Translations under genes and position numbers: made by a program
The notes under the pieces: generated by a model
The model's input: only the letters and a program-made list of their open reading frames with translations
Told to the model about the DNA's origin: nothing
Database searches by the model: none
NCBI GenBank assembly: GCA_029262055.1
Contig: JAJDAD010000063.1
Location: 1 to 64,000, forward strand
Reading direction: 5' to 3'
Source of the DNA: Candidatus Zhuqueibacterota bacterium
GTDB taxonomy: Bacteria; Zhuqueibacterota; Zhuqueibacteria; Oceanimicrobiales; Oceanimicrobiaceae
DNA: 64,000 nucleotides
Shown: one piece after another, positions 2 to 57,258 of the stretch
How the letters are laid out: the number at the start of each line of letters is the position of its first letter
Numbering within the stretch: the stretch's first letter is position 1

Positions 2-3000
2 TGGGCCACAGCGTATATGGACGACGCAGTGCACCCCAATGACACAGGTTACTCAATTATGGCTCAGACATTTTTTGATGTCTTCCTGGTGGCTAACTCC
101 AGTTCGACGACTCTTATTACGGACAACTTCGAGAGAACCAACCTGGGCATCACCTGGGCTGCTGACCCGGAATTTGTTCTGCAGAATGGCGATTTGGTCA
201 ACACTGCTACCACCGGTACCGGAAACTGGGAATACATGGCCACTTATAAGGCGATTAAGAACCCAAGCTCGGTCCGGATAAAGTGGGCAGCGGATGCCGA
301 GGCCATAAACAACAAGGAAGGTGGAATCGCTGTCCTTTTGGATGCGCCAACCGCAAATGCAGACGGCTTTCTTGCCTGGCTGACCGAAAGCGATAACACG
401 ATTCGACTCTGGACCATAAACAACGGTTCGATCGACCAGGATTTGAATCTCGAGAAGGTCAGTGAAGTGTTCCCCGCACCAGGCCCTGGCGATGAATTCC
501 GAGTCGACTTAACCGTCGACGGATCGAACCTGCAGTTCGATTACTATGTTCGTGGTGTTTTTGCAGGTAATATCACTAAAGCAAACGATACAGGAGTCGG
601 TGGTGATCTCTATTCAGGCGTTGTTCTGCGCCATGCCCGCGCAAACGACATTGATGACTTTACGCTCATAAAGACAAGCGACACCGATCCGCCTGCACCT
701 GTTGGAAACCTGGCTGCCGGCAGTGCAACGGCTACATCAATCAGCTTGTCATGGACCGCTTCAGGGGACGATGGCAGTACCGGGCAGGCGACCAGCTATG
801 ATGTAAGATACTCGACTCAGATTATCGACAATTCAAATTTTGCGAACGCGACGCAGGTTACCGGCGCACCAAGCCCAGCTCCCTTTGGCTCGCTGGAGAG
901 TGTCGTCGTTTCCGGCCTCGATCCCGGAACCCAGTACTTCTTCGCCTTGAAGGTCATTGATGAGGCCGGCAACACATCAACTCTTTCCAATGTTGTCACA
1001 TCAACTACCGTTGCCGGTAATTTCTTTGTCGACGATTTTACCCGGGTGGACCTTGGGGCGGACTGGACGACCGCCGCCGACTACGCCATCGTCAATAATG
1101 CGCTGAGCAACACGTCGACTGCGACTACCTGGAATGAAGTGGCGGTGGTGAACAGCCGCAAGAGCCCGGAAGAGGTGTCGTTCACCTGGACCGGAACCGC
1201 CGATGCCGACGGCATTGACCAGGCTGGGTTCGTCCTCGTGTTTGGCTCACCGAGCGCTACTGGGAACGGCTACGCTATCACTCGTAGAAAGAGTGTTGCG
1301 GACGGCGGGGATAATTCCCTGCGGCTCTGGGAGCTGGTGAACGGGACCATCACAAATACAATCGAAATTAACAAGTCAGTCGCCTTGTCACCACCACAGG
1401 CAGGCGACAAAGTAAAGATCCGGATATTCGCCGACGGCTCTGCCAACAGGTTTGATTTTTTCATCAACGATGTTTTGGATGCACAGGTGTCCGATCCAAA
1501 TTTCCTGTTCGATTTGTCCGCCGACAATTGGGCCGGTGTCATCCTGCGAGCCAACACAACTAGCCTCAGTTTGAACAATGACATCGACGACTTCACCATG
1601 TTGCTCAAGATCGGAGCGCCCACCAACCTGAGCAAATTCGCCGGCGATGCCCAACAGGACACGGTCGGGCAGCCGTTGCCGATTCCCCTGACGGTCAAGA
1701 TTGGGGATGAGTCAGGGAGCCCGATTCAGGGCGTCAACGTCAACTTTGCAGTCACTGGCGGCGGTGGAAGTGTGGATGTGGCGCCACCGAAAGACGACAT
1801 CATCATCGAGGCTGAGAGCGGTGTCCTAACCGACCCGATGATCGTCGGAAGCGATGCCGGGGCCTCAAACAGTGCCTTCATTTCAGTTCCTGAGGGCGCA
1901 GGTGGAAATGGTCTTGGCAAGGCGACCTTTACAATAAATATTGAACAGGCCGGGGACTACGTCATGTGGGGTCGTGCCATTTTCCCGAGCGCACAAGCCG
2001 ATGCTTTCAAAGTCTGGATTGACAGTGACTCAGCATCGTGGGATGTTGGGCAGCGTAACCACCAGTCGGACTGGAACTGGGATGAGGTGTCGGACCGAGC
2101 CGGCGGGAACGCTAGCAATCCACAGTTCAACCCCAAGATTTTTAACTTGACCTCCGGCTTGCACTCGATGAGAATTGAGGAAGCCAAAGACGGCACACAG
2201 CTCGACCAGTTTGTTTTGACCCGGGTGGGCTCCGGATTTCAACCACCCGCCGACCAGAGCGCTTTGATTCCGGGCGGCACCTTCAGTGACACACAGGGGC
2301 TGGCTACCGCCAACCTTACCCTTGGACCGGCGCCGGGCTTTAACACGGTCGTAGCGTCGGTGAATGGGCTTGGCTCAGTCACCTTTACTGCTGAAGGGAT
2401 CGCCGGCAAGATTGACTCTATTGTGATCGTCTCTGGCAATGCCCAGGTTGGGACTTCCGGACAGGCGCTTGCGGCTCCTTTTGTGGTCAAGGTTTTCGAC
2501 GAGTTCGGAAACCCGGCGACTAATTCCGAGACGACCTGGACAGTCCTGCCACCTGGCAACGGCACCCTTTCCGGCGGCGGCACGGTCGTTGCAGATTTGC
2601 TTGGCCAGGCCAGTAATATCTTGACTCTGGCGACTGATACAGGCCTCAACCGGGTGCAAGTTAGCGCGGTGGGCTACACAGGTCCTGACATCATCTTCAC
2701 CGCAACTCCGCAGGCCGGGGCGGCGACCAAAATCGCACTTGCCGCCGGAGACAACCAAACCGGCACGGCAGGCACGCCGCTGCAAACTGCATTGCAGGCG
2801 TTAGTGACAGATGCGCTGGATGTACCGGTGGTCGGACATTCTGTTTCATTTAATGTAGTGAGTGGTGGTGGCAATATTGGTGGTAGCTCATCAATCTCCG
2901 TTCTAACCGATCCGACTGGCATCGCGAATGTAACGTTGACTTTAGGCCCCCAGCCGGAACAACAAAATCAGGTTCAGGCGGTTGCAAGTGGCTTGCAGGG

Positions 3001-6000
3001 TAGTCCGATTACTTTTACGGCGACCTCAGCCGCACCCCAGAATCTTGAAACGATTTCATCCCTGACGCAATCCGGTGTGGCGAATCTGCCCTTAGATGAT
3101 TCTATTTCTGTCAGAGTGCGAGATGTGCTTGGCCAATCCTTGCCGTTTTTCCCGGTGACATTTGAGGTAACATTGGGTCAGGGGAAAATTAACGGCAGTG
3201 ATGGCGCCATTCAGGTCAACACCAATAGCGAAGGAATCGCAAAAGTGGAATGGCGCATGGGGCCACAGAGCGGCACCAATAACAACAAGCTGCAGGCGTC
3301 AGCCACCTGGGACAATCAAGCCCTGAGCGGCTCACCCATCGTTTACACTGCTTCGGCGGTCGTGGGTGCTGCACAAGATCTGATTATCGCTGGCGGAAAT
3401 AATCAAACCGGCACCATCGAGCAGGATCTGTCCAGTCCGTTTGCTGTCATTGTAACCGACGCAAATGGCAATCCGGTTGTCAGTTGGCCTGTCACGTTTG
3501 ACGTGATTGCCGGTGGCGGCAATATCGGAGGTCAGGCCTCGGTATTGGTACCGACCAATGCGCAAGGTCGTTCAGAAGTATTGCTAACTCTGGGCAACAC
3601 GGTTGGAAGTCAGAACAACCAGGTGAGCGCGTCTTCGCCGCAAACTAATACGGTGACTTTTTTCGCTTCCGCAAATTCGTCCGGTGCAACCACGCTGGCA
3701 CTGGTGAGCGGCGGTGGCCAAACCGGCCAGGCGGGGGTGGCACTTACCCAGAAAATCCAGGTGCGGGTTACTGATAATATTCCAAATAACATCGTAAGTC
3801 ACGAGGTCTTTTTCAAGGTTCTGCCGGGTAGCGGTGGCGCCACTATCAATGGCCAAGCGATCGGCGACACGGTAGAAACACTATTGACGAACAGCAACGG
3901 CATCGCTGAAGTCACGTGGTACCTCGGAGGGGCTTTGGGCACAAACAGCCAGAGTCTGGAAATCATGGCCAACGACGGGTTGAACCAATTGAGCGGCTCC
4001 CCTCTGACCGTGACCGCGAGCGCAATCGCCGGAACGGTCGATCCTGATGTCTCGACGGTTGTTTCGAATAAATCAGCCCTGCAAGCAGATGGCCAGGATG
4101 AGGCCGGCATAACCGTGACGCTGGTGGACAAATTCGGGAATCCGATCCCGGGCCAGGCCGTTACCATCTTGTCCAGCGGCAACAGCGATATCATCATTCA
4201 ACCGCAAAATCCAACGGATGCCAATGGCGAAGCGCTTGGCACCATTCGTTCATTCCAGGCCGGGGAGAAGACCATTATGGCCAGGATAATCGGCGGCATC
4301 CAATTGAATTCTTCCGCAGCCGTCAATTTTCTCGCCGAGCCGCCCGACCAGGTCGAGCCTAGTTCCGGCGACGGACAAACGACCAATGTGGGTACGAGTC
4401 TGGATAATCCGATCTCGGTGCTTGTCACCGATAATTTCAACAACCCCGTGTCAGGGGTTACTGTTGATTTCCGCGTTACAAGCGGTGGCGGGCGGATCCT
4501 GAACCCACGCTCGGTCGTTACTGATGCCAATGGCCTGGCTGAGGCCTTGTGGGTCCTGGGGAGTGCGCCGGGGTCCAATACCGCGGAAGCACGGGCCTTG
4601 TTTAATAACGAACTGATAAACGGCTCACCGGTTGTCTTTAATGCGACCGGCGTGGCCACGGCTGCTACCGAGATGAGCCTGAGCTCCGGCGCGAACCAGC
4701 AGGGAGTGGCGGCCGGCCAGGACCCGCCGATACCCCTGGGCGTTCTGGTGACCGACGCAAGCGGCGACCCGGTGTTCGATGTCGAGGTTAATTTTGATGT
4801 TAGTCTGGGTGATGGTACGCTGGAAAACGAGACCACAAGAACCAATTTTCAGGGGATCGCATCGACCGGCTTTACACTCGGACCTGTGGTCGGTACTAAC
4901 ATTGTACAAGCGAGCTCCGCAGGCCTGTCCGGTTCACCCATCATCTTTGAATTTGAGAGCGTGGTTGGACAGGCGTCGAAGCTTACCCGGCACGCGGGTA
5001 ATGACGCTGAGGTGCAGGTGAACAACACGCACGTGGTCTCGGTCATGATTACTGACTTTTTTGACAACCTGAAGGCAGGCGTCCATGTCAACTTTGAAGC
5101 CATCTCCGGAGGCGCATCCATCCAAATTCAGGACGGCGGAACCAATGCTTCAGGGATCGCGTCGGCAACCGTTCAAATGCCGACGAATGTAGCCGAAGTT
5201 GTAGTCAAGGCTGCCTCTGACGACTTGCCGGGCTTTTTTGTGAACTTTCAATTGCAGGCGGTGGCCGCACCCGCGACAAATATTGCTGAGTATGCAGGCA
5301 ATAATCAACAGGGTACTGTTGGCCGGCCGCTGGTGCATTCGCTGCAAGTTAAGGTAACGGATGCCTTCGGTAATCCGGTTTCAGGATTCTCCGTTCCCTG
5401 GCTGGCGTTCGGCGGCACGATTGCCACCAGCCCGACCACAACGGACGACGATGGCGTCGCCTCAGCCGAATGGACTTTGGGCGCAAGTACAGGCAACTAT
5501 GAGGCCCGGGCTGTCGTGCCTCTGAGCCCATCGCAGATCTTTTTCCAGGCTACGGCCGTCACCAATTCATTTCCGGAGTTTGTTGGTTTGTCGGATACAG
5601 CGATTGTTGAAGGGAATCTCCTGCAGTTTGAGGTCAACGCGGTAGATAATGACGAAGATCCCATCACCTTTTCTACGGATGGCTTGCCAAGCGGCGCTTC
5701 ATTTGATACTGGAAGCCGCGTCTTTACCTGGATACCGGCAATCACGCAGCAGGGTGAGTTTCAGGTGACGTTTATTGCACAGGACAATCGCGGTGGATTC
5801 GACTCGGAGACGCTGACTATCCAGGTCCTGAACAGCAACAACCCGCCGGTGATCAACGCTTTTGCACCGACTCTGGCCGAGTTTCAGGAAGTCGTCGGCG
5901 GCATCGTCAATTTTTCTGTGACAGTAGAAGATGCTGATGTGAATGACGTCATCACCTATACCTGGCTTGCCATGAGCCCATCGAATCCGGGCGGCCAGTT

Positions 6001-6703: not shown

Positions 6704-6767
6704 CCGGGTGTGATCTGAGCGAGGTTTGTTGACCTGAAGGGAAAGCGTGGCTATGAGATGAATGTGA

Positions 6768-6799
6768 GGGCCTGGTCGAAACCGGACAGGCCCTTTTTT
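6768..6799 (+). terminator. Rho-independent terminator after the first exoprotein
   Basis: A perfect 7-bp inverted repeat, GGGCCTG (6768-6774) and CAGGCCC (6787-6793), encloses a 12-nt loop and is followed by six T. It lies 65 bp past the stop at 6703 and separates the first exoprotein gene from the next transcription unit. Confidence 0.88.
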
Positions 6800-6895
6800 A
6801 AAAAACAAGGAGGGAGGGGATAAATTGAGAGTCCTGGTTTTGAAGCCAGGGAGCCTCAGGGACAAACATCCTGGATCGTACTTCTAGAGGAGTCT

Positions 6896-11620: not shown

Positions 11621-11630
11621 ATGGAAGCCA

Positions 11631-11656
11631 CAACCCCAGCGTGGCGGGGTTGTTTT
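11631..11656 (+). terminator. Rho-independent terminator after the first propeller gene
   Basis: A perfect 7-bp stem, CAACCCC (11631-11637) with GGGGTTG (11646-11652), has an 8-nt loop and is followed by TTTT. It begins 11 bp after the stop at 11620. Confidence 0.85.
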
Positions 11657-11855
11657 GCCGGTTATTCTCTCCACTTGTTAAATTGATGAAAAATATAGGA
11701 ATTACTTTCTGCAAATGAAGGCATCTTCTGGTACTTATATTCGATGGGCATAAACCCTGAATCAGAGCAATCCGAGACCTCCCGATGATCGATTGACGTA
11801 CGGTGGGATTAATCTCGGTCCTCTTCGGCTTTGCACCTTCTGCCTTGACTTCACT

Positions 11856-11860
11856 GGAGG
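11856..11860 (+). promoter_or_regulatory. Ribosome binding site that fixes the start at 11866
   Basis: GGAGG lies 5 bp before the ATG at 11866. The frame is also open from 11803, but the extra 21 residues would put a hydrophilic stretch before the signal peptide and have no such site. Confidence 0.85.
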
Positions 11861-11865
11861 ATTGG

Positions 11866-14800
11866 ATGTCCAGACACTTCATTGTGATTGCTTTTCTTAA
11901 TTTGGTAGCTGCTTCTCTGCTACCGGCTCAAATCAATTTTACCAGACACACCATCACCAATAACCTGCGCGCTGCTTACTGGGTCCATGCCCAAGACATC
12001 GACAAGGATGGCGATTTGGACCTTGCGTCTGCTGCATTTGATGGACTCGACTGGTGGGAAAATAATGGCCAGGGCGGCTTTTCAAAGCACCGGGTCGGAT
12101 CGGCGAAGGCAGCGTGGAGTGTGTTCGCCGAGGACCTGACTGGTGACGGCAAAGTCGACATTGTCGGCGGCTCCACCGCGGACAAAGAAATTATATTATT
12201 CAAGAACAACGGAAACGGTTTTCAACGTCGGCTGGTGGAGACCAATTTTCAAGACCCTGAATCTATTGTTGCGGCGGATTTCGACAAAGATGGAGACAAG
12301 GATCTCCTCAGTTGTGCCGTGAATGATGGCGTCGTGGCCTGGTGGGAAAATAGAGGCGGAGGTTTTGTTAAGCACCATATCGATGACCTGCCACGTGCCC
12401 ACTCAATCTTTGCAGCAGACTTGGACCGCGACGGAAAAATTGATGTTGTCGCCAGTGGCTCATCCAAACTGCGTTGGTACAGGAACGACGGCAGGGGCAA
12501 TTTCGCCAGAAAGAACCTCAGCTCTGACGGCGCCTGGTGCGTCTTTGCCGCTGATGTTGATGGCGATGGCGACAACGATATCTTGCGGACCCAGCGTAAC
12601 AACGGGGATGTAGACTGGTTCGAAAACAGCGGCAACGGAAGGTTTTCAGAACGTAACCTGGCGACCGGTTTCGGGGAGTCGTGGTCCGTGGTTGCAGGAG
12701 ACTTGGACGGTGATGGCGATGCCGACATCGCTGCTGCCGGATTTGAAGGCAATGTGATTCATGCCTGGTTTAACCAGGGTGGGGGCAAATTTGATGCAGG
12801 CGCTGTTGTCGAAAATGTCGATACGCCGCGCGGTGTGTGGATTGCCGATCTCGACCGCGATGGCGATGGTGACATCGCAGCCGCCATCCGCGGCGACCGT
12901 GATTTGGTCTGGTATGAAGCCAAAGGCAAACCCAAAATTTCAGCCAAGATTACAATCGAGTCGCCCAATGGCGGCGAAGTCCTGGCGGCCGGATCAAGCT
13001 CAGACATTCTGTGGAGCTCAAGAGGGAGCATCAACAAAGTGAGTGTTGAACTCTCGACCGATAATGGCAGCTCGTGGTCGCCGATTGTGGCTACCACCGG
13101 CAACGATGGCAAGTATGACTGGCTCGTTCCGGGTCCAGCATCGGATGAATGCCTCGTACGCATAGCAGATGCCTCAGGTGGCGGCACAGTCGATATCAGC
13201 AACAGTGTTTTTGCAATTGTCGCGGATTCGGATCCTGACCCTGGCGGCGCCGGCCCCGGTCTTTCGTTTTCTCCAACAGATGACGCCCGGGTGAGCGCAT
13301 CCAATCCAACCAAGAATTACGGGGACAAAGGCACGCTGCGCGTGGACAAAGAGAAACTGTTTAGCTATTTGAAATTCAACATATCCGGTATCAGCGGAAC
13401 TGTGGCGAAGGCCATGCTCCGTCTGTATGTCGAAAATGGCGGCGATGAGGGCGGTGCGATTTATTCAGTCAGCAATGATTATTCCGATTCCGGTTCACCC
13501 TGGACCGAATCAGGATTGACTTTTAAAAACGCTCCGGGAATTGCCGGCACACCCATCAACACTCTGGGGTTGGTTGAAGTCGATGAGTTTGTTGAGTTCG
13601 ATGTAACCGGCGCTGTCAGCGGCGACGGCGTGGTGAGCTTCGGGATCTCTTCCGATTCACCGGATAGAGTCGAATATACCTCAAAAGAGGGTGCCGTTCC
13701 ACCCACCCTAATCATCGAGACCAAGGCTGGAGACACACCTAAGCCGAAAAAGTTTAGCTTAAATGTTACGGTCGATGGGTCCGGCACTGTGAGCCTTGAT
13801 CCGCCAGACGGTCCTTACCCGGAGGGCGCGCACGTGACTTTGACTGCAAATCCCGCCGCTGGCAATGAGTTCGTCAGTTGGAGCGGTGATGCTAGTGGCT
13901 CGACCACCGAGGTTACCGTAACGATGAACGGCAAACGGGAGGTCACGGCCACATTTCAGCCATCGAGCGGTGATACAGGTGACAGCGGTTCACCGGTATT
14001 CTTTCCGATTGCTGATGCCCACGTGAAATCAAGCAAACCCTCGACTAATTACGGCACGAGCGATAATTTACGGCTCCGCTCGGCCTCTACCAGCTATCGC
14101 GGTTATCTAAAGTTCAATGTAACCGGAATTTCCGGAGGCGTTCAGAAGGCGCTCCTTCGGCTTTATGTCAATGACGCAAGTGCCGACGGCGGTTCCGTGC
14201 ACACGGTGTCGAACTTTCGCAAAGGCTCTTCGTCGCAATGGACCGAAAGAGATTTGACCTGGAACAACGCCCCTGACATCGGTGGCAGCGCGCTGGCTTC
14301 CGCGGGTGAAGTCAAGAACCGGCAGGAAGTAGAGTTTGACGTGACTGCGGCTGTGACCGGTAACGGGACTGTGAGCTTCGGGTTGATCAACAAGTCCAGC
14401 AACAGTGCAAAGTATGACTCGAAAGAAGGCAGTAATCCACCACAACTGGTGGTCATCAGTGGCGGTGGAACCGGTGGCGGCGGCAACCGTGCGCCAATTG
14501 CTTTCGACGACAATGCCAGGACCAGCTCCGGCATTGCGGTGACCATCCATATCTCCGCAAATGATACCGATTCAGACGGGACGGTGGATGTGTCGACCAT
14601 TAAGATTGTCCAGGATCCTGCAAGCGGTGCCGTGTTAGTCAATAAGTTCTCCGGCGTAGCCACCTACACGCCCAACGCCGGCTTCGCTGGTGAGGATTCT
14701 TTCACATATACCGTCAGGGACAATGAGAGTGCGACTTCCAACCAGGCGACTGTTGCCATAACAGTGGCCGGGGCAAGCTCGGCAGGCAAGCTTAGCTTTG

Positions 14801-15741: not shown

Positions 15742-18700
15742 ATGTTGAGTTCGCTGACAAAAGGTATGGCAGCGGTGGTCTGTGCCATGATGGTACTGGG
15801 CGGAAGCTTTGCGCCAGCCCAGGAAGCAGGCCGCATTCAACCCGGCTTTGTCGTTAATGGCAGCTCGTCCGCTAGTATGTCCGTGTCGACTTCTGAAAGG
15901 ATTGAGGCCTCGTCTGAGCGGACCTTCCTGGCCGCGATTTCTTCCCGACCTGGCGCTCGAGTCACCGCAGTCAGGGGCCTGGGAGCCAACTGGCAACAAG
16001 TGGTTAGGCAATGTTCGGGGCGCAATTCGACTTATGTTGAAATATGGCTGGCTACGGGTGAGCCGGTTTCAAATGAACCCGTCATAGCAGAGTTTTCGGA
16101 AGTTACCGATAATGCAGTGATTTCAGTTTCAGGATACTCTGGTGTACAAGCGGAGACAGTTGTCGGTGCGATGGTGGCGGGCAATTCAAACGGGATTCAG
16201 GGCACCTGCACCGGTGGAGTCGACGGCAACAGTTATGACCTGAGTCTGGAAACAACAGTGGCCGGTGGACTTATCTACTCGGCGGCGGCCATGCGCAGCC
16301 GCAGCCATATCCCCGGAACCGGCTTCACCGAAATTGACGAAATCCATTCCGGAGATCGTGGGAAAGAGGCAAGTATTGCTACTCAAATCAGAGAGGTTGA
16401 CCTGGCCGGGCTGCAGGACATCCGGGGACGGTTCAATCGGAACGTTGACTGGGCCGCTGCCGCATTTGAACTGAAACCTGATTCCACTAACATCGACTCC
16501 TCCGGTGCGACCCAGGTGGCCTTGACGACAAATACGACCGGCATCGGAACCATCAGCGTGGATCCTCCAGGCGGCGTTTATATAGCGGGGCAGGAAATCA
16601 CGATCATGGCCAGCCCGGAGGAGGATTGGCAGTTTACGGCATGGTCCGGAGACCTGTCCGGGACAACCAATCCACTTGTGGTCACCATCACCTCTGACCT
16701 TGACATTACCGCCAACTTCATCGAGATACCCATACGAAAATTCCGCCTGCAAGTTGAAACCGCGGGCCAGGGGCGTGTTGACGTGTTGCCCAATCAGGAA
16801 TTTTTTGATGAGGAGACGGGAGTCACACTTATTGCCGAGGCGGCAACCGGATGGCGATTCGACAGTTGGAGCGGCGACCACGTCAGCTCACGGAATCCTG
16901 ACACAATTATCATGGATGCCGACAAAGTCATCCGCGCCAATTTCATAGACAATTCTGCCGGCGAATCCGTGCGGCATGAGGAGACACAGTCCGGCATTTC
17001 ATCCGGACAAAGTCAGGTGACCACCGCAAGCTCTCTCACCGGCGTCGGCGGGCATCTTTACCTGGCGTCCGTCTCGACGCGTCCGCGCCGTTCGGTCGTA
17101 GCGATCGCCGGGCTTGATCTCAAATGGCGGCGAGTGGTCGAACAGTGTTCCGGTCGTGGCGCCACCGGGGTTGAAATCTGGTACGCGCGAGGGAACGACG
17201 CCTCCACGGAACCGGTGACCGTCACCTTGACGTCGGCCACGGATAATGCTGCCTTTGCTGTCTCCAGATATTCCGGAGTGAGCATTGAGGACCCATTTGT
17301 AAGCATAGTCGCCGGTAATTCGAACGGTCGCGATGGTACCTGCGGACGCGGAACCGATACCGCAACTTATGCGCTGGACCTGGGGCAAATCAGTTCAACT
17401 CACCTCGTTTACGGCGCCACCGCAATCAGAAACAAGATTCATGAACCTGGTCCGGGTTTTTTGGAGCGCAGCGATATCCGCGCCGGCACAACGAGAGTTG
17501 CAGGTTTGGTCGTGCAGGACATCAGGGTTCCCGTAACGTCGAATGTGTCGGTGTCGGGATCTTTTGAAGCCGCAGTCGATTGGGCTACCATCGGAATTGA
17601 GATTCTCCCCGCAGCAGCCAGCGATGAGCAATTCAGGATCACAGCCGAAGTCGATTTACCTCAGGGCGGAAAGATGATTTTTTCTCCGCAGAAAGAGACT
17701 TACAACAGAGGTGAATCTGTTCTTGTTACGTCCGCGCCGTCAGACGGATATGTCTTTGTCGGATGGCAGGGAGATCTGTCCGGATTTGCAGGTCAGGAAA
17801 CCCTGGTCATGACTTCTAACCGTTTTGTCAAGGCCCTCTTCCAGCAGATTCCAACGCCGCGAACTGACTCGGGAATTCTCTTCGGCACAGCGGAACTTGC
17901 AACTTTGCCCGTTTCAGGCCCTGCCTGGACTGTCCTGTTGGCTGAAGCCGACAAGATAACCGGGCCTCCGAACGTTTCCAACAAAGATGATTCGGTTAAC
18001 GTGAGAGTGTTGGCCAAAGCACTGGCGTTCGCCAGAATCGGCGGTGAACGCTACCGTTCCGATGTGATAGCGGCGTGTGTCGCCGCTATCGGCACTGAGG
18101 CAGGCGGCAGAACGTTGGCGTTGGGGCGCGAGCTTCTGGCCTATGTGATCGCTGCTGATATTGTCAAACTGCCAGGGCCGGAGAATACGGCCTTCAAAAA
18201 CTGGTTGCGGCAGGTGCGAGCGAGGGATTTGCAGGGACGCACGCTGCAAACAACGCACGAGGACAGACCGAACAATTGGGGAACAAATGCCGGCGCGACC
18301 CGCGCTGCCATTGCCCTCTACCTGGAGGACTGGCAGGACCTCGCGCGCACAGCCCTTGTTTTTAAAGGCTACCTGGGCGACCGGGCGGCATACGCGGAAT
18401 TTGATTACGGCGAACTGTCGTGGCAGCACGATCCCCTGCAACCTGTTGGGATAAACCCGAAAGGGGCCACGAAAGATGGCTATAGCATCGACGGTGTCAT
18501 GCCCGATGATATGAGAAGGGGAGCGAGCTTCCAGGTGCCGCCGGCGTTCACGGGTTATCCCTGGGGCGCCCTGCAGGGTGTGGTCGTTCTGGCGGAGATC
18601 CTTTATCGTGCCGGGTACGATAGCTGGAGCTGGGAAGAACAGGCTATTCTGCGCTCAGTCCAGTTTTTGCAGGATCTCGGCTGGGAAGCTACAGGAGACG

Positions 18701-20100
18701 ACACCTGGATTCCCTGGATGATCAATTTACGCTACGGCACCAATATCAAGGCAAGGACGCCAACGATATCGGGCAAGAATTTCGGCTGGACGGACTGGCT
18801 TTACGGCGGGGATTTCGGATTAAATGTCACAACCAGCGGACAGGGTAGTGGTAAGATCGATATCTGCTCCCTGGGATTTGACCAGAGTTCACGCGCCCTG
18901 ATGCGATTGCACGCCCTACCGCGCTCAGGTTCGTTGTTTGCAGGCTGGAGCGGCGATTTTACCGGCACGGAAAACCCGGCTGTTCTTGACCTGTCGAAGA
19001 ATATGAATGTAGTGGCCCTTTTCAACGAGCGGGAGGCCGAGCAGGTTGTGCTGACGGTTTCCACCACAGGCCCGGGCACTGTCCAGATTACACCGCCGGC
19101 AGCCGCCTACGATCTCGGTTCAGTGGTACACCTTCTGGCCATTCCGGATAGCGGATTTGTCTTCTCCGGCTGGCGTGACGATGTTCTGGGTAGCGAGAAC
19201 CCGGTACAGATCACCATGAACGGCGACCGGCAGGTAACTGCACTATTTTCCTCACCTCCTGTAGAGAAAACTCTAATTTTCCAGCCGTCGGACGATGCTT
19301 ATGTCAAGTCTGGATTGAATCTTAATTACGGCGATCGGAATGTGCTGAAAGTCCGACTCGGTGGCAGCAAGTTTTACAGCTTTCTGAAATTCCAGGTTAC
19401 TGGTAGTGCCGGCAAGATCACAAGCGCGCGCCTGCGCTTATTCGCGACCGAAAACAGTCCGGATGGTGGTGGATTGTATGTGGTGGCAAACGAGCTCAGA
19501 GATTCCGGTGAAGCCTGGAATGAAACGAATCTGGTTTGGAGTAATGCACCGCTCATTGGAGAAACGCCCTTCCGGTCCGGGACGCCGACTCAGTTCAACA
19601 CATGGGTAGAATTTGATGTGAGCAGTTTGATTTCAGGGGACGGGACTTACAGCTTTGCTTTGAAAAATAACGATGCCGGCGTCGCGCGCTACAGCTCCAA
19701 AGAAGGCGACCAGCCACCGGAACTCGTGCTGGAGACCGCACCGTCAGCTGCTCAGACAGCGCCAGAAGGAGCAACAGCGGCCGGCGCTAAAGTCCGGCTT
19801 ACGGCGAATACCGAACTTCCCGAAATCTTTGCTCTTGGGGCAAATTATCCGAATCCATTTAATGCCGGCACAACAATGGAGTATGCGGTAGCGAGAGAGT
19901 CGCGGATTCAGATAGCAGTGTTCAATATCAGCGGACAGTTGGTGCGCAAACTTGTCGATGAAGTACAGACAGCCGGCTTCAAGTCAATGAAATGGGATGG
20001 CCGTAATCAGCAAAGAGCGGACGTGAGTTCGGGAGTGTACTTCCTTCGCCTCAATGCCGGAGGCAAGGTCATGATTCGCAAGATGCTTTTGCAGAGATAA
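15742..20100 (+). CDS. Secreted alginate-lyase-like protein with InlB-type repeats, DNRLRE module and NPFN tail
   Basis: 1452 residues; the ATG at 15742 has GGAGG 9 bp upstream and opens a signal peptide (1-27, ending FAPAQ). Two copies of an unassigned module of about 215 residues (33-246, 407-622) flank two InlB-type repeats (257-402), and a third InlB repeat follows (630-705). The helical domain at about 710-1020 resembles the alginate lyase alpha/alpha toroid family: NNWGTNAGATRAAIALYLED, a DGVMPDDMRRG stretch and GYPWGALQG are the markers. Two more InlB repeats (1026-1172), one DNRLRE/CBM96-like module (1176-1333) and the NPFN tail (1355-1452) follow. The next gene, a heparinase-like lyase, starts 11 bp downstream, so the two are probably one operon acting on the same uronic-acid polymer. 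Lyase assignment is by motif and fold appearance only; substrate is inferred. Confidence 0.75.
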   Translation: MLSSLTKGMAAVVCAMMVLGGSFAPAQEAGRIQPGFVVNGSSSASMSVSTSERIEASSERTFLAAISSRPGARVTAVRGLGANWQQVVRQCSGRNSTYVEIWLATGEPVSNEPVIAEFSEVTDNAVISVSGYSGVQAETVVGAMVAGNSNGIQGTCTGGVDGNSYDLSLETTVAGGLIYSAAAMRSRSHIPGTGFTEIDEIHSGDRGKEASIATQIREVDLAGLQDIRGRFNRNVDWAAAAFELKPDSTNIDSSGATQVALTTNTTGIGTISVDPPGGVYIAGQEITIMASPEEDWQFTAWSGDLSGTTNPLVVTITSDLDITANFIEIPIRKFRLQVETAGQGRVDVLPNQEFFDEETGVTLIAEAATGWRFDSWSGDHVSSRNPDTIIMDADKVIRANFIDNSAGESVRHEETQSGISSGQSQVTTASSLTGVGGHLYLASVSTRPRRSVVAIAGLDLKWRRVVEQCSGRGATGVEIWYARGNDASTEPVTVTLTSATDNAAFAVSRYSGVSIEDPFVSIVAGNSNGRDGTCGRGTDTATYALDLGQISSTHLVYGATAIRNKIHEPGPGFLERSDIRAGTTRVAGLVVQDIRVPVTSNVSVSGSFEAAVDWATIGIEILPAAASDEQFRITAEVDLPQGGKMIFSPQKETYNRGESVLVTSAPSDGYVFVGWQGDLSGFAGQETLVMTSNRFVKALFQQIPTPRTDSGILFGTAELATLPVSGPAWTVLLAEADKITGPPNVSNKDDSVNVRVLAKALAFARIGGERYRSDVIAACVAAIGTEAGGRTLALGRELLAYVIAADIVKLPGPENTAFKNWLRQVRARDLQGRTLQTTHEDRPNNWGTNAGATRAAIALYLEDWQDLARTALVFKGYLGDRAAYAEFDYGELSWQHDPLQPVGINPKGATKDGYSIDGVMPDDMRRGASFQVPPAFTGYPWGALQGVVVLAEILYRAGYDSWSWEEQAILRSVQFLQDLGWEATGDDTWIPWMINLRYGTNIKARTPTISGKNFGWTDWLYGGDFGLNVTTSGQGSGKIDICSLGFDQSSRALMRLHALPRSGSLFAGWSGDFTGTENPAVLDLSKNMNVVALFNEREAEQVVLTVSTTGPGTVQITPPAAAYDLGSVVHLLAIPDSGFVFSGWRDDVLGSENPVQITMNGDRQVTALFSSPPVEKTLIFQPSDDAYVKSGLNLNYGDRNVLKVRLGGSKFYSFLKFQVTGSAGKITSARLRLFATENSPDGGGLYVVANELRDSGEAWNETNLVWSNAPLIGETPFRSGTPTQFNTWVEFDVSSLISGDGTYSFALKNNDAGVARYSSKEGDQPPELVLETAPSAAQTAPEGATAAGAKVRLTANTELPEIFALGANYPNPFNAGTTMEYAVARESRIQIAVFNISGQLVRKLVDEVQTAGFKSMKWDGRNQQRADVSSGVYFLRLNAGGKVMIRKMLLQR
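15838..16480 (+). repeat. First copy of an unassigned secreted module (about 215 residues)
   Basis: Shares with the copy at 16960-17607 the ordered motifs VxQCSGR, VEIWxAxG, VAGNSNGxxGTC and VDWAxxxxEx. Both copies have two conserved cysteines (CSGR and GTC), possibly a disulfide. The segment looks all-beta with no catalytic signature that I recognise. Confidence 0.7.
16960..17607 (+). repeat. Second copy of the unassigned module
   Basis: Same ordered motifs as the first copy: EQCSGRGATGVEIW, SRYSGV, IVAGNSNGRDGTC and AVDWATIGIEI. The copies are clearly related but diverged, and two InlB-type repeats separate them. Confidence 0.7.
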
Positions 20101-20111
20101 AGAGTCTTTTA

Positions 20112-25277: not shown

Positions 25278-25628
25278 GTAGAGTTTCACAAATGTCATGA
25301 CTGTGTCACATGGATCCACTTGAGCGACGAACGATTCAGGCGGATTCCAGGCCCGAACCGCCGGCGGCAGGCATAGATGTGAGGTCTTGCATCATGGAGT
25401 TGCCGACGAGAGAGATGACAGAAATATTTGTTTTTATGTTGTTTAGTGTGAAGTGATGAGGATTGCGGGAGTTGCCCAGGATTTTCGAAATCTGGCGGCT
25501 CGGATTCAATTATTAATAAGAGGTTACGATAATAACTATTATCCCTAGGTCCATGCGTTTGGTACGAATAATGCATGAGTTATCCTGTTTTTTTGAATGA
25601 CAATTAGAACCTCAAGCTAAAGCTGCAC
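25278..25628 (+). other. Intergenic region with a 16-bp palindrome
   Basis: No convincing gene on either strand and no clear terminator after the lyase gene. It is AT-rich toward the 3' end and contains the palindrome GATAATA-AC-TATTATC at 25528-25543. No well-spaced -35/-10 pair was identified. Confidence 0.6.
25528..25543. promoter_or_regulatory. Perfect palindrome, candidate operator
   Basis: GATAATA and TATTATC are exact reverse complements separated by AC. The site lies 85 bp before the ATG at 25629. Its size and symmetry fit a dimeric repressor or activator site; no regulator is identified. Confidence 0.45.
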
Positions 25629-28600
25629 ATGAAAACGAACATCACATCTGCTTGGATACTAGTTTGTTTGCTCGGGATCTTTCACACGCTGGCTGCGCAG
25701 GGCGGAGGCACTGCGTTGCAGTTCGATGGCCAGGGCGGCTATGTTGAGATCTCAAATCATCCCGATTTTCAAGGCGGTTCTGGCAACAGTTTCACCATTG
25801 AGGCATGGGCTAAGGTGACGGACTTGAGTGAAGACAGGCCCATCATCCAGAAGTGGCTGGACAAACGCAACAAAGAATGGGGCATGACCATAAACAGCGG
25901 CTCTGTCAACAACATAGCTGTCGCGATCGAAAACAACGGCAATGATTTTGAGTATGAGGCCGGTGGCGGTATCGTCCAGGATAATGCCTGGCACCACATC
26001 GCTATGACTTACGATGGCAATGCGCACACACTGAAAATCATCATTGACGGGCAGGAGGTCGGGAGTTCTCCGGTTCCGGATGGTATGCCCTCGACCAACG
26101 CGACTGTCCAGATCGGTCATCATCGCTACAAACCGGAAAAGAAGTTCCTCGGGGAGATCGATCAAATCAGGATCTGGAATCTGGTCAGAACACCATCCGC
26201 GATTCAGGCGGACATGTTTGACACGTTGAACGGTGACGAAGCCGGGCTTATCGCTTATTATCAATTTGATGAAGGCAGTGGTTCGACCACGGCCGACCAA
26301 GCCGGCAACGGCCACACGGGTCAGTTTAATCAAGGTCCGAGCAACGACCCGTTTTGGGTCGCATCAACTGCGCCTATTGCGGGGGATGCATTCATAACCG
26401 TGACTTCGCCGAACGGCGGTGAGGTCTTTGAGCAGGGAGATGCGCACACCATCACATGGATTTCTGGTGGTGCCGGTGGACACGTCATGGTGGAGTTGTC
26501 AGAGGACGGTGGCACTACGTGGAGTCTCGTTGACAATTCGACAAACAACGACGGCCGGTTCAACTGGACAGTCCCCGCCATCGTTACTGCGAGTGGGTTG
26601 ATTCGGATTACAGATACTAGCGACACCACGGTGCGGGACGCGAGCAATGCAACTTTTGCCATTGTTGCCGGCGGTGGTGACTTTAATTTTAGTTTTTCCG
26701 ATATTACCACGAGTGCCGGGACCGGCGGTCCGGAAGGGGCGGGGAACACCGGTGGGCATGCCGCTGTATTCGCGGATGTGGACGGCGATGATCGCTCAGA
26801 CTTGTATCACACCATGCTCTTTTCTAGCCAGATCGCAGATCTGTTCTTCAGGAATACCGGTGGGAGCGTTTTTGCCGACGAAGGCGCTGCACGAGGCATT
26901 GATGACCTTGACGGAGGATCGCACGGGGCTGTTTTTGCGGATCTTGACAATGATGGTGACTTCGATCTGTTTAATGGTACGACCGGGCTCGATGGTTCCC
27001 CGGAGATAAACAATGTTTTCAGGAACAACAGCAGCGGCATTTTTACAGACGTAAGTAACTCCGCGGGTATCACACGGCGGGAACCAACCCGGGGTGTTGT
27101 CGCCTTTGACATGGATTCTGATGGCGACCTGGACCTGTTTGCTGTCAGCAATTTTCAGGGATCGGCGGATCCGTCCGGGGAACGCAATGAGGTCTATCGT
27201 AACGACGGCAACCTGCAGTTTACGGAAATCACCACCGGAGGACTGTATACCGCGCCGGCGGGACAGGGCGCGACCGACACCGATTACGACGGGGATGGCG
27301 ACATCGATATCATTGCCGGCAACAGAACCGGGAGTCTAAATGTTCTGAGAAACGACGGCAGCGGCAATTTTACGCTGCTGGGCGCTTCCTCAATCGGCAT
27401 CACACACCAGGGGCGGGAAGGCGTCACGATGGGTGATGTGGATAACGATGGCGACCTGGATATGCTTTTGTCCGACTTCAATGACCCGCAGAACGTTGCG
27501 CTGGAGCACTTGTATCTGAATGACGGCGATGGCACCTTCACGTTCAAGTCAAGCTTTACCGACACGAAGGGATTTATGGGCGGTTTCGCGGATTTGGACA
27601 ACGATGGCGACCTCGATATTGTTTTTTCAGGAGACGACGTTTCTTATGTAAATGACGGATCCGGGAATTTCACCGTAGGGCCATCCGTTCCGGTGAGCGG
27701 AATCGATGATCCGCGAGCCATCGCTTTTAGCGACATCGATGACGACGGCGATCTTGATTTTGCTATTGGGGCAAAACGTTCGCGCAACTGGCTGGTTCGC
27801 AACAATCTTACTTCAGGCAATTGGTTAAAGGTGGGGCTGGTTTCTCCCTCCGGTCAGAAAGGCGCGTTCGGGGCAAAAATCAAGATCTATGCGGCCGGCC
27901 AGCTGGGCGGCCAATTACTTGCTTTTCGTGAAGCGAGAGCCATGAACGGCTACCTTGGCCAGAATGCCCAGAATATCCACTTCGGCCTGGATTCCCGCAG
28001 CCAGGTAGATGTTCAGGTTATTTTTCTGGATGGCACTGTCTCTTCCCAGACTTTCGTATCAGCCAACCAGACGATCATTTTTGACGAGTCTCCGGGCGGT
28101 GGCGCCGGCCCGCAAATCAGCTCATTCACTCCGACCAGCGGTGCGCCCGGTATTACTGTTTCCATCTCCGGGACCGGTTTTACCGGTACGAGCGAGGTGC
28201 TGTTCAATGGCACAGCGGCAACTGGCTTTTCGGTGCTGTCCGACGTGGCCCTGGACGCTACGGTACCGGCGGCAGCAACCACCGGCACTATCACAGTCAC
28301 CACGCCAGCCGGGTCGGCCACCAGCACACAAGTTTTTACGGTCACGGCCGGCAATACTGTAACCTTCGTCACCAGCGATGACGGGCAGGTCAAACTCACG
28401 GAACCATCGAAGAATTATGGTTCAAAGTCGACGACCAAGGTCGAAGAGGACAAGTTTAATACCTATCTGAAGTTCAACGTTAGTGGCCTGAGTGGGGCAG
28501 TTGAAAGCGCCAGGGTCCGGCTGCGCGTCTCCGCCGGAACCAGTGACGGCGGTCCCGACGGCGGTTCCTTGTTCCTGGTATCAAATGACTTTTTGGGATC

Positions 28601-31600
28601 GAGCACACCGTGGGTGGAGAACTCACTCTCGGCCGGTAACGCACCACAAATATCAGGAAATTCTCTTAGCTCCGCAGGCGCTGTGACGCCACTCGCTACC
28701 GTCGACTTTGACGTGAGCGCCGCAGTTTCCGGCAACGGCACCTACAGTTTTGGCCTCAAGAACGGCTCGGGAAACCAGGTCAAATACTACACCAAGGAGG
28801 GCAGCTTTGCCCCGGAACTCATCGTTCAGGTCGGTTCCGGCGGTGGTGGCAACACGGCCCCCACTGCGGTCGATGACAACGCCACAACCACGGAACCCAA
28901 TCCCGTTCAGATCGACGTTGTTGCAAATGATTTTGATTCCGATGGTTCAGTAGACGCAAACTCCGTGGCAATTGTCTCGAACCCCACGAACGGGTCGGTC
29001 TCGGTGGCCGGTGGCGGCCTGGTAACCTACACCCCAACTTCAGGGTTTAGCGGCCAGGATACTTTCACCTACACTGTGGATGATAATGAAGGTGCTGCAT
29101 CCAACAGTGCGACCGTTACCGTAACCGTTGACGCCTCCGGTGGTGGCGGTACAGGGACTTTCACATTCATCGCGACTGATGATGGACAGGTGAAATTAAC
29201 CGAACCCGGAAAGAACTACGGTACCAAAGCGACCATGAAGGTCGAGCAGGATAAATTCGCCAGTTACATGAAGTTCAATGTTACCGGTTTGAGTGGCCAG
29301 GTTGTAAGCGCGAAGGTGCGTCTGTTGGTGTCGGATGGGAGCTTCGACGGCAGTACTGAGGGTGGGTCTATCTATCCGGTTGCCAATAGCTTTCTTGGCG
29401 GCGGCGTTCCGTGGGTGCAATCATCCCTGAATGCTGGGAACGCCCCGGCCATTTCCGGGAGCCCGCTGAGTACGGTTGGGACGGTCCTGAGTAATTCTTT
29501 CGTTGATTTTGACGTGACGGCTGCCTTTGGATCGAACGGAGAGTATAGTTTTGCAATTTCCAACACGTCAACCAACCAGGCCAAATACTACAGCCGGGAA
29601 GGGGCTTCGGAGCCGGAGCTGATCATCGAGGTTTCGGGAGGTACGGGCAATCAACCCCCGACAGCCGTTGACGACAACGTCGCCACAAGTGAAAATATTC
29701 CTGTCGTCATCACTGTGACGCAGAACGATTCCGACCCGGACGGCACGCTGGTTCCTGCAACAGTGGCGATAACCACGGGACCAGGCAACGGCTCCACAGC
29801 AGTCAATCCGGCCAATGGTGTGGTGACATACACGCCCGCTTCGGGTTTTTCCGGCAGCGATTCATTCCGGTATACGGTTGAGGACAACGAAGGCGCAGTC
29901 TCAAACGAGGCGCTTGTGAGCGTTCAGGTCAATGGTACCAACGCGCTCCCGGTTGCAGTTGACGACACCGTTACTGTGAGTGAAGATGTACCGAGCGCCA
30001 TCAGTGTACTCTTAAATGATGACGACTCAGACGGCAGCATTGATCCCACGACAGTAAGTGTCACCAGCGGGCCCGGGCAGGGCACGGCTACTGTGAATCC
30101 GTCCACAGGGGAAGTCACCTATGCACCGGCGCTCAACTTTTTCGGGAATGACACCTTCAGCTACACAGTCAAGGACAACGATGGCGCGGTCTCGAACCAG
30201 GCAACAGTCACGATAAGCGTCACACCGGTCAATGATGCGCCAGTGGCCGCCAACGACTCCGAGACCATTACCGGCTCATCAGTCGTGCTCAATGTCACTG
30301 CTAATGACACGGATATTGACGGCACGATTGACGTTACAACCGTGACGGTGGTTTCATTTCCCTCGTCCGGATCCGTGGTTGTCAATCCCTTCTCGGGGAT
30401 AGTAACCTACACTGCCGGCGGCGGTTTTTCCGAGTCAGACAGTTTTACCTACGAAGTACGCGATGACGGAGGCCAGACCTCCAATGTGGCTACTGTCACT
30501 ATTTTTGAGCCGGGTAGCCAGAAAACCCTGTTTTCATTCGGTGCGGCTGAAGATTCCTACGTAAAAACTACCGAGCCGGGCTCCAATTTCGGTGGCCGCA
30601 ACACCATGAAAGTAGAGTCACCGAAATTCTCTTCCTATGTCAAATTCAATGTCACCGGCCTGAACGGCAATGTGCAAAGCGCGCATATCAAACTGTTCGT
30701 TTCGAGTCCCAGTGTCGATGGTGGAACGATCTATCTGGCCAGTAACACGCAGCAGGGCTCCGGTACACCGTGGACGGAAGAGACGCTTACATTTGCAAAC
30801 GCGCCGGAGATCATTGGTTCGGCTCTGTTTAACCCGGGTGCGGTGCAGGAACTTGATACGGCCAGCTTTGAAGTTACATCGGCCATCGGCGGAAATGGTG
30901 TTTACAGCTTTTGTATCCAGAGCACTTCCCTGGACCAGGCGAAATACGCAGCCAAGGAGAGTAGCAATCCCGACCCCGTGCTGGAAATCATCACCGACGG
31001 TGTGCCTCCTGCCGCGCCGACCGTGTCTGCACTCAACCCCGATAGCGGGCTGCCGGGCAGCGAGATCGTAATCTCGGGGAGCGACTTTATTGCGACCTCT
31101 GGCGGTAATCCTTTTTCCGGCACGATTCAAATCATGCCGCTCGGTAACTCCATCACAAAAGGTGTCGCCGGCGCCACCGACAACGCGGGTTATCGCAACG
31201 ACCTGGCGGAATTGCTCGATCTTGACGGCGTCGCGTATAATTTTGTTGGCACAAATGACAACGGCACCGGTTTTGACAACGACCATGAGGGACACGGTGG
31301 CATCCGTGCCGACCAAATTCTGGTCGATTTGAATAGTTATCTCACGACAAATCCTCCCGATATTGTGCTGGTACATATCGGTACCAACGATATCTCCACG
31401 GGAAACACTCCCGCCAGCACGGCCGACGAGACCGGACAAATCATCGATACGATCGAGCAGTTCGATGCCGAGACAGTAATCATTGTGGCCAGTCTTGTAC
31501 CACGCAAAGACCAAAACAATGATGAAACCACGGACCTGAACAACAGAGTCGAGGACCTGGTTGCTGCTCGTCAGTTAAACGGTGAACCGGTTTACTACGC

Positions 31601-33095
31601 ACCGATTAATGAGGCCTTCATAGCAAACCCGAATTGGCAAGCCGATTATTTTCCCGCCGCCGACCAGGTGCATCCGAACGACACGGGCTACGGCGTCATG
31701 GCGGGGGTCTGGTTTGATTTGATCAAAAATATCATTTCCGGTTCTACCGGAATCACGGTCGCCTTCAACGGTAGCGATGCCACCAGCCTTACAGTCGATT
31801 CGGCCAACCAGATCAGAGCAACCGTGCCGGGCACCGCATCGACGGGACCGGTCACTGTCACAACGCAATACGGCAGCGGCCAAGGCCCGAGTGCTTTCAC
31901 GGTGCTGGATCCGACAATCGCCGCGCTCGAGCTTGAGTATCCGCAGGATGCTGTCGTTTGGCAGGCTGGTAGTACGCACATGTTACAATGGCGCACTCTG
32001 GGCAAGGTTGAGGACGTCCGGATTCAATATTCTTTAGATGATGGTGAGACCTGGCTGTCTGCGGCGGAGCGGGTTCCCAACAACGGAAAATTCGTCTGGC
32101 GTTTGCCTTCAGGAGAAACAGAGCGCATCAAGCTTCGAGTCTCTGATGCCCAGAATCGACACATAGAGAGCATTACCGAGAACGGTGTCAGTGTGCGGCA
32201 ACGCGGCAACACTACTTCGCTGCCCAATTGGGTCGAAATGCGACAGGCGCTTGCCAGCGATCCTGAGCTGGATAACGCCAGCCTGCAGCGTGCCGATCTG
32301 AATGGCGACGAAGCTGTGGACCTGCTCGACTTTTTGAGTTTGCTTGATCTTGACGAATCCAGGTTGGCAGCCATGCGTGACAACAGACACGAGGCCGGCC
32401 CGGCCGAAGAGCAGGGGAATCTCAGTCTGATTCTGCCGGCTATTGAACCTCCGGCGGGCAAGCAGGTCGAAATTCCGATCCTGGCAGAAGGGAATGAGAA
32501 GATTCGTGGCTTCCAGTTCCGATTGAATTATGACAGCGAAGCACTGACCAATATCGAGTCTGTTTCAGCCACCAATGAATTGGGGATGGTGCTCGAGACC
32601 TTCGTTGCAGACGGCTATGTCGATGTCATCGGTTACCTGGAAATGGAAGGAAGCGCGGTGCAAACAAATGGCGAGCTGGTGCGACTCAAAGCTGAACTTT
32701 CGTCTTCAGATGTGAATTTTGAAACCAAGGTCACGAATGTGCTTTTTGTCTCCCAGAACCTTGGACGCCTGACAGATACTGTCGTTGACAATTCTACCGG
32801 CAGCGGTAGTCTACCTTCCGAATTCCGCCTGGCACAAAATTATCCTAATCCGTTTAATCCGACCACACAAATCAATTTTGACCTGCCGCAAAAGTCGAAA
32901 GTCACCATTCAGATCTACAGTATTCGCGGTGAACTGGTCGCCACTCTGCTTGACAAAGAAATCGCACCAGGCCGCCACAAAATAACCTGGGACGGCAGGA
33001 ACAGCAGAGGAGTGCGAGCCGCCTCGGGAATTTACATCTATCGCATTAAGGCCGGTAAGTGGAAAAACTCCAAGCGCATGACCCTGCTAAAGTGA
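25629..33095 (+). CDS. Giant secreted protein: LamG, FG-GAP/UnbV, DNRLRE, tandem-95, SGNH hydrolase, dockerin- and cohesin-like, NPFN tail
   Basis: 2488 residues; signal peptide 1-24 (ending LAAQ). Order: LamG lectin fold (28-235), Kre9-like Ig (252-345), FG-GAP propeller ending in an ASPIC/UnbV domain (353-822; GAFGAKIKIYA, REARAMNGYLGQN), TIG (828-908), DNRLRE (910-1068), tandem-95 (1074-1172), DNRLRE (1176-1337), three tandem-95 repeats (1341-1632), DNRLRE (1632-1793), a TIG domain split by an SGNH hydrolase (1793-2095), Kre9-like Ig (2096-2190), one dockerin-like F-hand (about 2223), a cohesin-like domain (2263-2390) and the NPFN tail (2394-2488). SGNH blocks are visible: GNSITKG, GTNDIS and DQVHPND. 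SGNH enzymes often de-esterify polysaccharides, so this could remove acyl groups before lyase attack; the exact ester is unknown. Confidence 0.82.
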   Translation: MKTNITSAWILVCLLGIFHTLAAQGGGTALQFDGQGGYVEISNHPDFQGGSGNSFTIEAWAKVTDLSEDRPIIQKWLDKRNKEWGMTINSGSVNNIAVAIENNGNDFEYEAGGGIVQDNAWHHIAMTYDGNAHTLKIIIDGQEVGSSPVPDGMPSTNATVQIGHHRYKPEKKFLGEIDQIRIWNLVRTPSAIQADMFDTLNGDEAGLIAYYQFDEGSGSTTADQAGNGHTGQFNQGPSNDPFWVASTAPIAGDAFITVTSPNGGEVFEQGDAHTITWISGGAGGHVMVELSEDGGTTWSLVDNSTNNDGRFNWTVPAIVTASGLIRITDTSDTTVRDASNATFAIVAGGGDFNFSFSDITTSAGTGGPEGAGNTGGHAAVFADVDGDDRSDLYHTMLFSSQIADLFFRNTGGSVFADEGAARGIDDLDGGSHGAVFADLDNDGDFDLFNGTTGLDGSPEINNVFRNNSSGIFTDVSNSAGITRREPTRGVVAFDMDSDGDLDLFAVSNFQGSADPSGERNEVYRNDGNLQFTEITTGGLYTAPAGQGATDTDYDGDGDIDIIAGNRTGSLNVLRNDGSGNFTLLGASSIGITHQGREGVTMGDVDNDGDLDMLLSDFNDPQNVALEHLYLNDGDGTFTFKSSFTDTKGFMGGFADLDNDGDLDIVFSGDDVSYVNDGSGNFTVGPSVPVSGIDDPRAIAFSDIDDDGDLDFAIGAKRSRNWLVRNNLTSGNWLKVGLVSPSGQKGAFGAKIKIYAAGQLGGQLLAFREARAMNGYLGQNAQNIHFGLDSRSQVDVQVIFLDGTVSSQTFVSANQTIIFDESPGGGAGPQISSFTPTSGAPGITVSISGTGFTGTSEVLFNGTAATGFSVLSDVALDATVPAAATTGTITVTTPAGSATSTQVFTVTAGNTVTFVTSDDGQVKLTEPSKNYGSKSTTKVEEDKFNTYLKFNVSGLSGAVESARVRLRVSAGTSDGGPDGGSLFLVSNDFLGSSTPWVENSLSAGNAPQISGNSLSSAGAVTPLATVDFDVSAAVSGNGTYSFGLKNGSGNQVKYYTKEGSFAPELIVQVGSGGGGNTAPTAVDDNATTTEPNPVQIDVVANDFDSDGSVDANSVAIVSNPTNGSVSVAGGGLVTYTPTSGFSGQDTFTYTVDDNEGAASNSATVTVTVDASGGGGTGTFTFIATDDGQVKLTEPGKNYGTKATMKVEQDKFASYMKFNVTGLSGQVVSAKVRLLVSDGSFDGSTEGGSIYPVANSFLGGGVPWVQSSLNAGNAPAISGSPLSTVGTVLSNSFVDFDVTAAFGSNGEYSFAISNTSTNQAKYYSREGASEPELIIEVSGGTGNQPPTAVDDNVATSENIPVVITVTQNDSDPDGTLVPATVAITTGPGNGSTAVNPANGVVTYTPASGFSGSDSFRYTVEDNEGAVSNEALVSVQVNGTNALPVAVDDTVTVSEDVPSAISVLLNDDDSDGSIDPTTVSVTSGPGQGTATVNPSTGEVTYAPALNFFGNDTFSYTVKDNDGAVSNQATVTISVTPVNDAPVAANDSETITGSSVVLNVTANDTDIDGTIDVTTVTVVSFPSSGSVVVNPFSGIVTYTAGGGFSESDSFTYEVRDDGGQTSNVATVTIFEPGSQKTLFSFGAAEDSYVKTTEPGSNFGGRNTMKVESPKFSSYVKFNVTGLNGNVQSAHIKLFVSSPSVDGGTIYLASNTQQGSGTPWTEETLTFANAPEIIGSALFNPGAVQELDTASFEVTSAIGGNGVYSFCIQSTSLDQAKYAAKESSNPDPVLEIITDGVPPAAPTVSALNPDSGLPGSEIVISGSDFIATSGGNPFSGTIQIMPLGNSITKGVAGATDNAGYRNDLAELLDLDGVAYNFVGTNDNGTGFDNDHEGHGGIRADQILVDLNSYLTTNPPDIVLVHIGTNDISTGNTPASTADETGQIIDTIEQFDAETVIIVASLVPRKDQNNDETTDLNNRVEDLVAARQLNGEPVYYAPINEAFIANPNWQADYFPAADQVHPNDTGYGVMAGVWFDLIKNIISGSTGITVAFNGSDATSLTVDSANQIRATVPGTASTGPVTVTTQYGSGQGPSAFTVLDPTIAALELEYPQDAVVWQAGSTHMLQWRTLGKVEDVRIQYSLDDGETWLSAAERVPNNGKFVWRLPSGETERIKLRVSDAQNRHIESITENGVSVRQRGNTTSLPNWVEMRQALASDPELDNASLQRADLNGDEAVDLLDFLSLLDLDESRLAAMRDNRHEAGPAEEQGNLSLILPAIEPPAGKQVEIPILAEGNEKIRGFQFRLNYDSEALTNIESVSATNELGMVLETFVADGYVDVIGYLEMEGSAVQTNGELVRLKAELSSSDVNFETKVTNVLFVSQNLGRLTDTVVDNSTGSGSLPSEFRLAQNYPNPFNPTTQINFDLPQKSKVTIQIYSIRGELVATLLDKEIAPGRHKITWDGRNSRGVRAASGIYIYRIKAGKWKNSKRMTLLK

Positions 33096-57212: not shown

Positions 57213-57258
57213 AGCTTCCTCATAGGTGGTCATTAGTTACTCACGAATCCAGTCGTGG

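Follow-up and report, generated by a model that had tools for sequence, protein, structure and literature searches.

Six adjacent giant genes at the start of a contig from what we take to be a KSB1-group bacterium may encode a surface array acting on acidic polysaccharide, assembled from locally duplicated and shuffled T9SS cargo genes. This is the explanation that we favor, with moderate confidence. The six proteins, P1 to P6, would be exported through the SprA translocon and fixed to the outer surface, where their DNRLRE, FG-GAP, and Ig-like modules would hold an acidic, probably acetylated polysaccharide. CE3-like SGNH domains in P6, and perhaps in P1, would take off acetyl groups, and P5 (and probably P4) would cleave the chain by beta-elimination. 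The unsaturated products would then pass to GH88-type enzymes and a KduI/PfkB/Eda pathway, with TRAP uptake, all encoded elsewhere in the genome. Alginate is less likely to be the polymer than an acidic glycan of the glucuronate or glycosaminoglycan type. We infer the lyase and esterase activities of the array, its substrate, its surface location, and the cooperation of the six proteins from sequence. No close characterized homologue of the array enzymes was found, which counts against this explanation, as do the weak fold statistics of P4, the His missing from P5, the separation of the six genes in relatives, and the lack of enzyme domains in most of the CBM96 proteins scanned in the genome.

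The window analyzed here comprises the opening 64 kb of contig C74, from a host genome of 5.74 Mb that is 97% complete. Six long co-directional open reading frames fill positions 2 to 33095, bearing out the sequence-only reading of six adjacent same-strand giant genes. The gaps from P1 to P6 are, in order, 192, 182, 66, 11, and 351 bases, and the 11-base gap between P4 and P5 counts in favor of joint degradation. P1 (2..6703, +) is open at its 5' end because the window starts at base 1 of the contig; what remains encodes an SGNH hydrolase remnant (amino acids 1-35), an fn3 domain, seven Big_1 domains, He_PIG, and a T9SS type A tail. The N-termini of P2 to P6, read directly from the sequence, are signal-peptide-like. 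P2 (6896..11620, +) continues with an FG-GAP propeller, SPNGGE-type Ig modules, one CBM96, three Big_9/cadherin modules, and a T9SS tail. P3 (11803..15612, +), whose true start is likely the ATG near 11866, has an FG-GAP propeller, three CBM96 modules, and the tail. The propellers at the N-termini of P2 and P3 are 58% identical, which indicates a tandem duplication. In P4 (15679..20100, +), a PL5/PL38-like toroid lyase domain is accompanied by InlB-type repeats, one CBM96, and the tail, while P5 (20112..25277, +) combines a heparinase II/III-type lyase with four TIG domains, two CBM96 modules, and the tail. P6 (25629..33095, +) is built from LamG, FG-GAP/ASPIC, TIG, three CBM96, four Big_9, SGNH, and cohesin modules, again ending in a T9SS tail.

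The surroundings bear on the earlier statement that no SusCD pair or transporter lies nearby, of which only the first half stands. No SusD was found in the window, and SusD_RagB matches in the genome occur only on contigs C112 and C83. A permease gene (PF16980, CitMHS_2, NhaD-type; 33444..34961, +) starts 349 bases downstream of the array, in front of genes recognized by eye that we take to be nuoJ-N. An ECF sigma factor, FecR, and a TonB plug-domain receptor, a FecIRA-like set without SusD, follow in a row at 48427-53809 (+). Two further genes in the window drew our attention. An amidohydrolase-like frame of about 383 codons (56082-57233, -) carries one in-frame TGA (56666-56664) and could be a pseudogene, a sequencing error, or a case of recoding. 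Ribosomal protein bS16 (45870-46769, -) is 299 amino acids long, with PF00886 covering residues 9-67 and a long, low-complexity, Ala/Glu/Lys-rich C-terminal extension.

All six proteins pass the NCBIfam model TIGR04183 (28.5-41.8 bits; cut-off 23), so that the common NPFN tail noticed earlier is a predicted T9SS type A sorting domain. The same genome has a SprA_N match (E 1.1e-25) in a 2113-amino-acid frame, and the presence of the translocon was judged from SprA alone. Neither the tail nor the module set is special to this locus: genome-wide there are 116 places with PF18962 tail matches and 44 CBM96 copies in about 19 frames. The module set is thus a genome-wide style of T9SS cargo and not a locus-specific kit. 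Same-strand runs of tails occur elsewhere too: C43 has six in 12.5 kb, and C74 has four between 108 and 116 kb. The P1-P6 cluster is thus real, but it has counterparts in the same genome. The C43 run (G000:C43:29694-42254, -), with six T9SS-tailed genes, is denser than the array itself. Our literature search found no paper combining T9SS and KSB1.

Profile searches with PF24517 return exactly the ten DNRLRE modules counted in the sequence-only reading, at 76-123 bits against a cut-off of 26. They are distributed as one in P2 (9413-9871), three in P3 (13264-13722, 13999-14454, and 14797-15249), one in P4 (19279-19737), two in P5 (23715-24173 and 24459-24923), and three in P6 (28356-28829, 29157-29630, and 30534-30992), all on the plus strand, and share 31-60% identity with one another. 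In the alginate-binding structure 7vbo, Arg36 is essential, and the R36E change abolishes binding (PMC9971899). Aligned to 7vbo, all ten array modules have Phe, Leu, or Tyr in place of Arg36 and lack Lys10, Lys22, and Lys31, while Lys25 is kept as Lys or Arg. On present evidence from this alignment, the array modules cannot be called alginate-binding. Ten CBM96 proteins from elsewhere in the genome were scanned as well. Nine had no recognized enzyme domain, and the remaining one joins a sulfatase, GH88, and CBM96 to a FlgD-like (T9SS-type) tail. The nearest precedent for P5, in that a toroid lyase is joined to CBM96-type modules, is Dp0100, a multidomain PL39 alginate lyase with the founding CBM96 (PMC9971899; 6jp4 and 7vbo). 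However, besides the residues missing from the ten modules, P5 lacks the His beside Asn that is listed for PL39, and it has a T9SS tail.

The sequence-only reading had made its case depend on the two toroid domains matching some lyase family, and both do so above curated cut-offs, P4 with PF05426 and P5 with PF07940. The lyase region of P5 (20190..22450, +), to which the residue numbers below refer, scores 30.8 bits with Hepar_II_III_C (PF07940; cut-off 24). A profile of six close P5 homologues matched the PL15 structure 3a0o (Atu3025; E 1.7e-10), PL35, and other lyases in the PDB. A broader profile, A2, gave very strong PDB matches but takes in distant stand-alone lyases, and the narrower profile A3 was therefore used for family placement. 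Antibody matches from a single-sequence search were spurious, and a single-sequence structure prediction with a mean pLDDT of 33.9 was not used. In the broader alignment, whose register we counted off manually, Tyr214 and His391 of P5 align with Tyr365 and His531 of Atu3025. Asn152 is kept in 13 of 14 aligned sequences, and Ile153 stands at the place of His311, a position that is Ile or Val in three of the five closest relatives and His in two.

Tyr, His, and Asn are the core catalytic residues of such lyases; alginate lyases conserve a further His, where other PL35 enzymes have Asn (PMC12088678). In a PL15 enzyme, the His at this place is reportedly not strictly needed (PMC11921355). With Tyr, His, and Asn kept and the alginate-lyase His lost, P5 is probably a polysaccharide lyase but unlikely to be an alginate lyase of the typical kind, and an acidic polymer other than alginate becomes more likely. 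Because P5 lacks the His beside Asn that PL15, PL17, and PL39 use, its mechanism or activity may be altered. P5 thus shares a profile match and the Tyr/His/Asn set with the PL15/PL35 heparinase II/III-like lyases (3a0o, 8khv, and 9o3q), but its identity to them is low and it differs at Ile153. Two T9SS-tailed paralogues of P5 are encoded on C104 (58%) and C106 (52%).

The SGNH hydrolase domain of P6 (31140..31691, +) is CE3-like, with all four sequence blocks readable; its best solved relative is 2vpt (E 1.1e-20), which we take to be a CE3 structure, followed by acetyl esterases. Because the contig begins within P1, only the tail of a second SGNH domain is left there, its last ~35 residues with the DxxH block; the earlier reading had expected one and probably two such hydrolases. 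New to the module list of P6 are a cohesin (32433..32786, +), above its cut-off, and a subthreshold dockerin-like stretch that precedes it. A cellulosome-like reading of this cohesin was rejected, as the genome holds too few partners (five cohesin and two dockerin matches).

In relatives the six genes do not travel as one unit; only fragments of the array are kept. Four relatives (G004, G002, G003, and G006) have a P6-type gene upstream of the nhaD-type permease, close to nhaD/nuo; of these, G002 and G004 belong to the same family as the host genome. Three opposite-strand genes separate the two in G004 and a second tailed gene in G003, and at the permease site of G002 stand four large genes in a row, three of them NPFN-tailed. 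In G004 a P3 homologue stands directly before a P5 homologue, and this P5 homologue has P6-like FG-GAP/ASPIC in its later part. The P4-type domains of relatives are located elsewhere. The site is partly conserved, and the array is a variable expansion there, not a conserved unit of six genes.

Genes for using the presumed products lie on another contig, C34 (L122-L123), which encodes GH28, GH20, two GH88-type proteins, Eda, a PfkB kinase, KduI, an SDR, and TRAP DctP/DctM. From this gene set, the organism can probably use unsaturated uronates, which are probably imported by the TRAP system. That the import and catabolic genes are unlinked to the exoproteins counts against our explanation. On C9 (L119 2228-6370), a single protein combines a sulfatase, InlB-type repeats, GH88, CBM96, and a FlgD-like/T9SS-type tail and is a candidate degrader of a sulfated uronate polymer. 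Together, the C34 pathway and this protein make uronate use plausible.

The most interesting part of the locus is the family of P4. Its 300-amino-acid lyase-like domain (17905..18804, +), with the motif HEDRPNNWGT, is assigned from PF05426 (34.7 bits; cut-off 22.2), a family alignment, a structural model, and fold matches. The predicted model (mean pLDDT 92.4) is mostly helical and toroid-type, and its best fold matches are all polysaccharide lyases (PL38, PL17, and PL5), with modest to weak statistics (11-17% identity, best E 2e-3, TM ~0.6). Neither sequence nor profile searches with P4 matched the PDB. The predicted alpha/alpha toroid fold and the PF05426 match are in common with the PL5/PL38 lyases Smlt1473, PanPL, and BoPL38, but the low identity, the missing PDB profile match, and an invariant motif of its own set P4 apart. 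A module of ~200 amino acids occurs twice in P4, at about residues 75-270 and 440-640, the first copy having no Pfam match at E values up to 1.

We collected 35 relatives of P4 with 43-65% identity from about nine phyla, their record titles naming KSB1, Calditrichaceae, Chloroflexi, Deltaproteobacteria, Myxococcota, Planctomycetota, Acidobacteriota, Acidimicrobiia, Gottesmanbacteria, and Gammaproteobacteria. The alignment of 36 sequences has 34 invariant columns, and His118, Glu119, Arg121, Asn123, Asn124, Trp125, Arg133, Arg205, and Tyr218 are kept in every one; position 128, a variable column, is Asn in the window copy and His in most relatives. The PL5 lyase Smlt1473 has an Asn-His pair (N167 and H168), an Arg (R215), and a Tyr (Y222); the family alignment of P4 shows invariant Asn, Arg, and Tyr, which may or may not be their equivalents. 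We found no solved or assayed member of the P4 family, and a literature search linking PF05426 with exopolysaccharide brought up one paper, on cyanobacterial EPS. In phmmer searches, Wzx, Wzy, or glycosyltransferase genes lie within 6 kb in 10 of the 35 loci, all from other genomes, and five have a Wzx homologue (L077, L078, L080, L083, and L084, in genomes of several phyla). A Pseudomonadaceae locus, for example, has glycosyltransferase, Wzy, and Wzx genes followed by the P4-type gene, and in a KSB1 relative (L060) the P4-type gene occurs with Wzy and glycosyltransferase genes. The same queries gave no match in 238 kb of control loci, a contrast that is indicative only because these come mostly from the window's own genome. 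We tentatively suggest that P4 represents an uncharacterized polysaccharide lyase family, which would normally trim polymers in Wzx/Wzy export systems and which in KSB1 would have been turned into a T9SS-displayed enzyme beside a second lyase and an esterase.

The frequent position of stand-alone P4 members in exopolysaccharide export clusters makes own-matrix processing a serious rival to our explanation. The lyase and esterase proteins would then remodel or release the cell's own exopolysaccharide or biofilm matrix, and no food polymer would be involved. AlgL does such matrix processing in alginate producers. The ten export-type loci, one of them in a KSB1 relative, and the empty controls speak for this reading, but the controls are mostly the window's own genome, P4 in the window lies outside any such cluster, is T9SS-tailed, and has a lyase from a different family as its neighbor, and the genome has a uronate catabolic locus. 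We consider own-matrix processing unlikely, though it is the main rival.

If the catalytic-type domains were degenerate or lectin-like, the array would mainly serve in adhesion or as a surface layer. Enzyme domains are absent from P2 and P3, as from nine of the ten outside CBM96 proteins, and one catalytic His is missing from P5; yet catalytic-type residues are otherwise kept (Tyr, His, and Asn in P5, the SGNH blocks of P6, and the invariants of P4), and this reading seems to us improbable. The capture and degradation of an alginate-type polyuronate, the target first suggested for the locus, is very improbable. The Pfam names CBM96 and Alginate_lyase and the PL15 alginate lyase among the P5 profile matches point to alginate, but the replacement of Arg36 in all ten CBM96 modules, and of the alginate-lyase His by Ile in P5, points away from it.

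As a proposed surface array acting on acidic polysaccharide, the locus belongs to the known T9SS-exported multimodular polysaccharide-active proteins. CelAly, a Bacteroidota T9SS multimodular CAZyme with a cellulase, an alginate lyase, Big domains, and a Por sorting tail (PMC13235733), resembles the array proteins in its large size, lyase domain, Ig-like modules, and T9SS tail. In contrast, the array consists of six adjacent proteins with other lyase families and DNRLRE modules, in a KSB1 host, with no SusCD pair nearby. SusCD-type polysaccharide utilization loci would have extracellular lyases for an acidic polymer in common with the array, which differs from them in having no SusCD pair.

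These observations have consequences for annotation, as the Pfam name CBM96 should not be taken to mean alginate binding. The array also points to a widespread lyase-like family, that of P4. If our explanation is true, an uncultured phylum would join those known for surface-displayed, T9SS-exported degradation of acidic polysaccharide, and its genes for uptake and catabolism would lie apart from those of the exoproteins.
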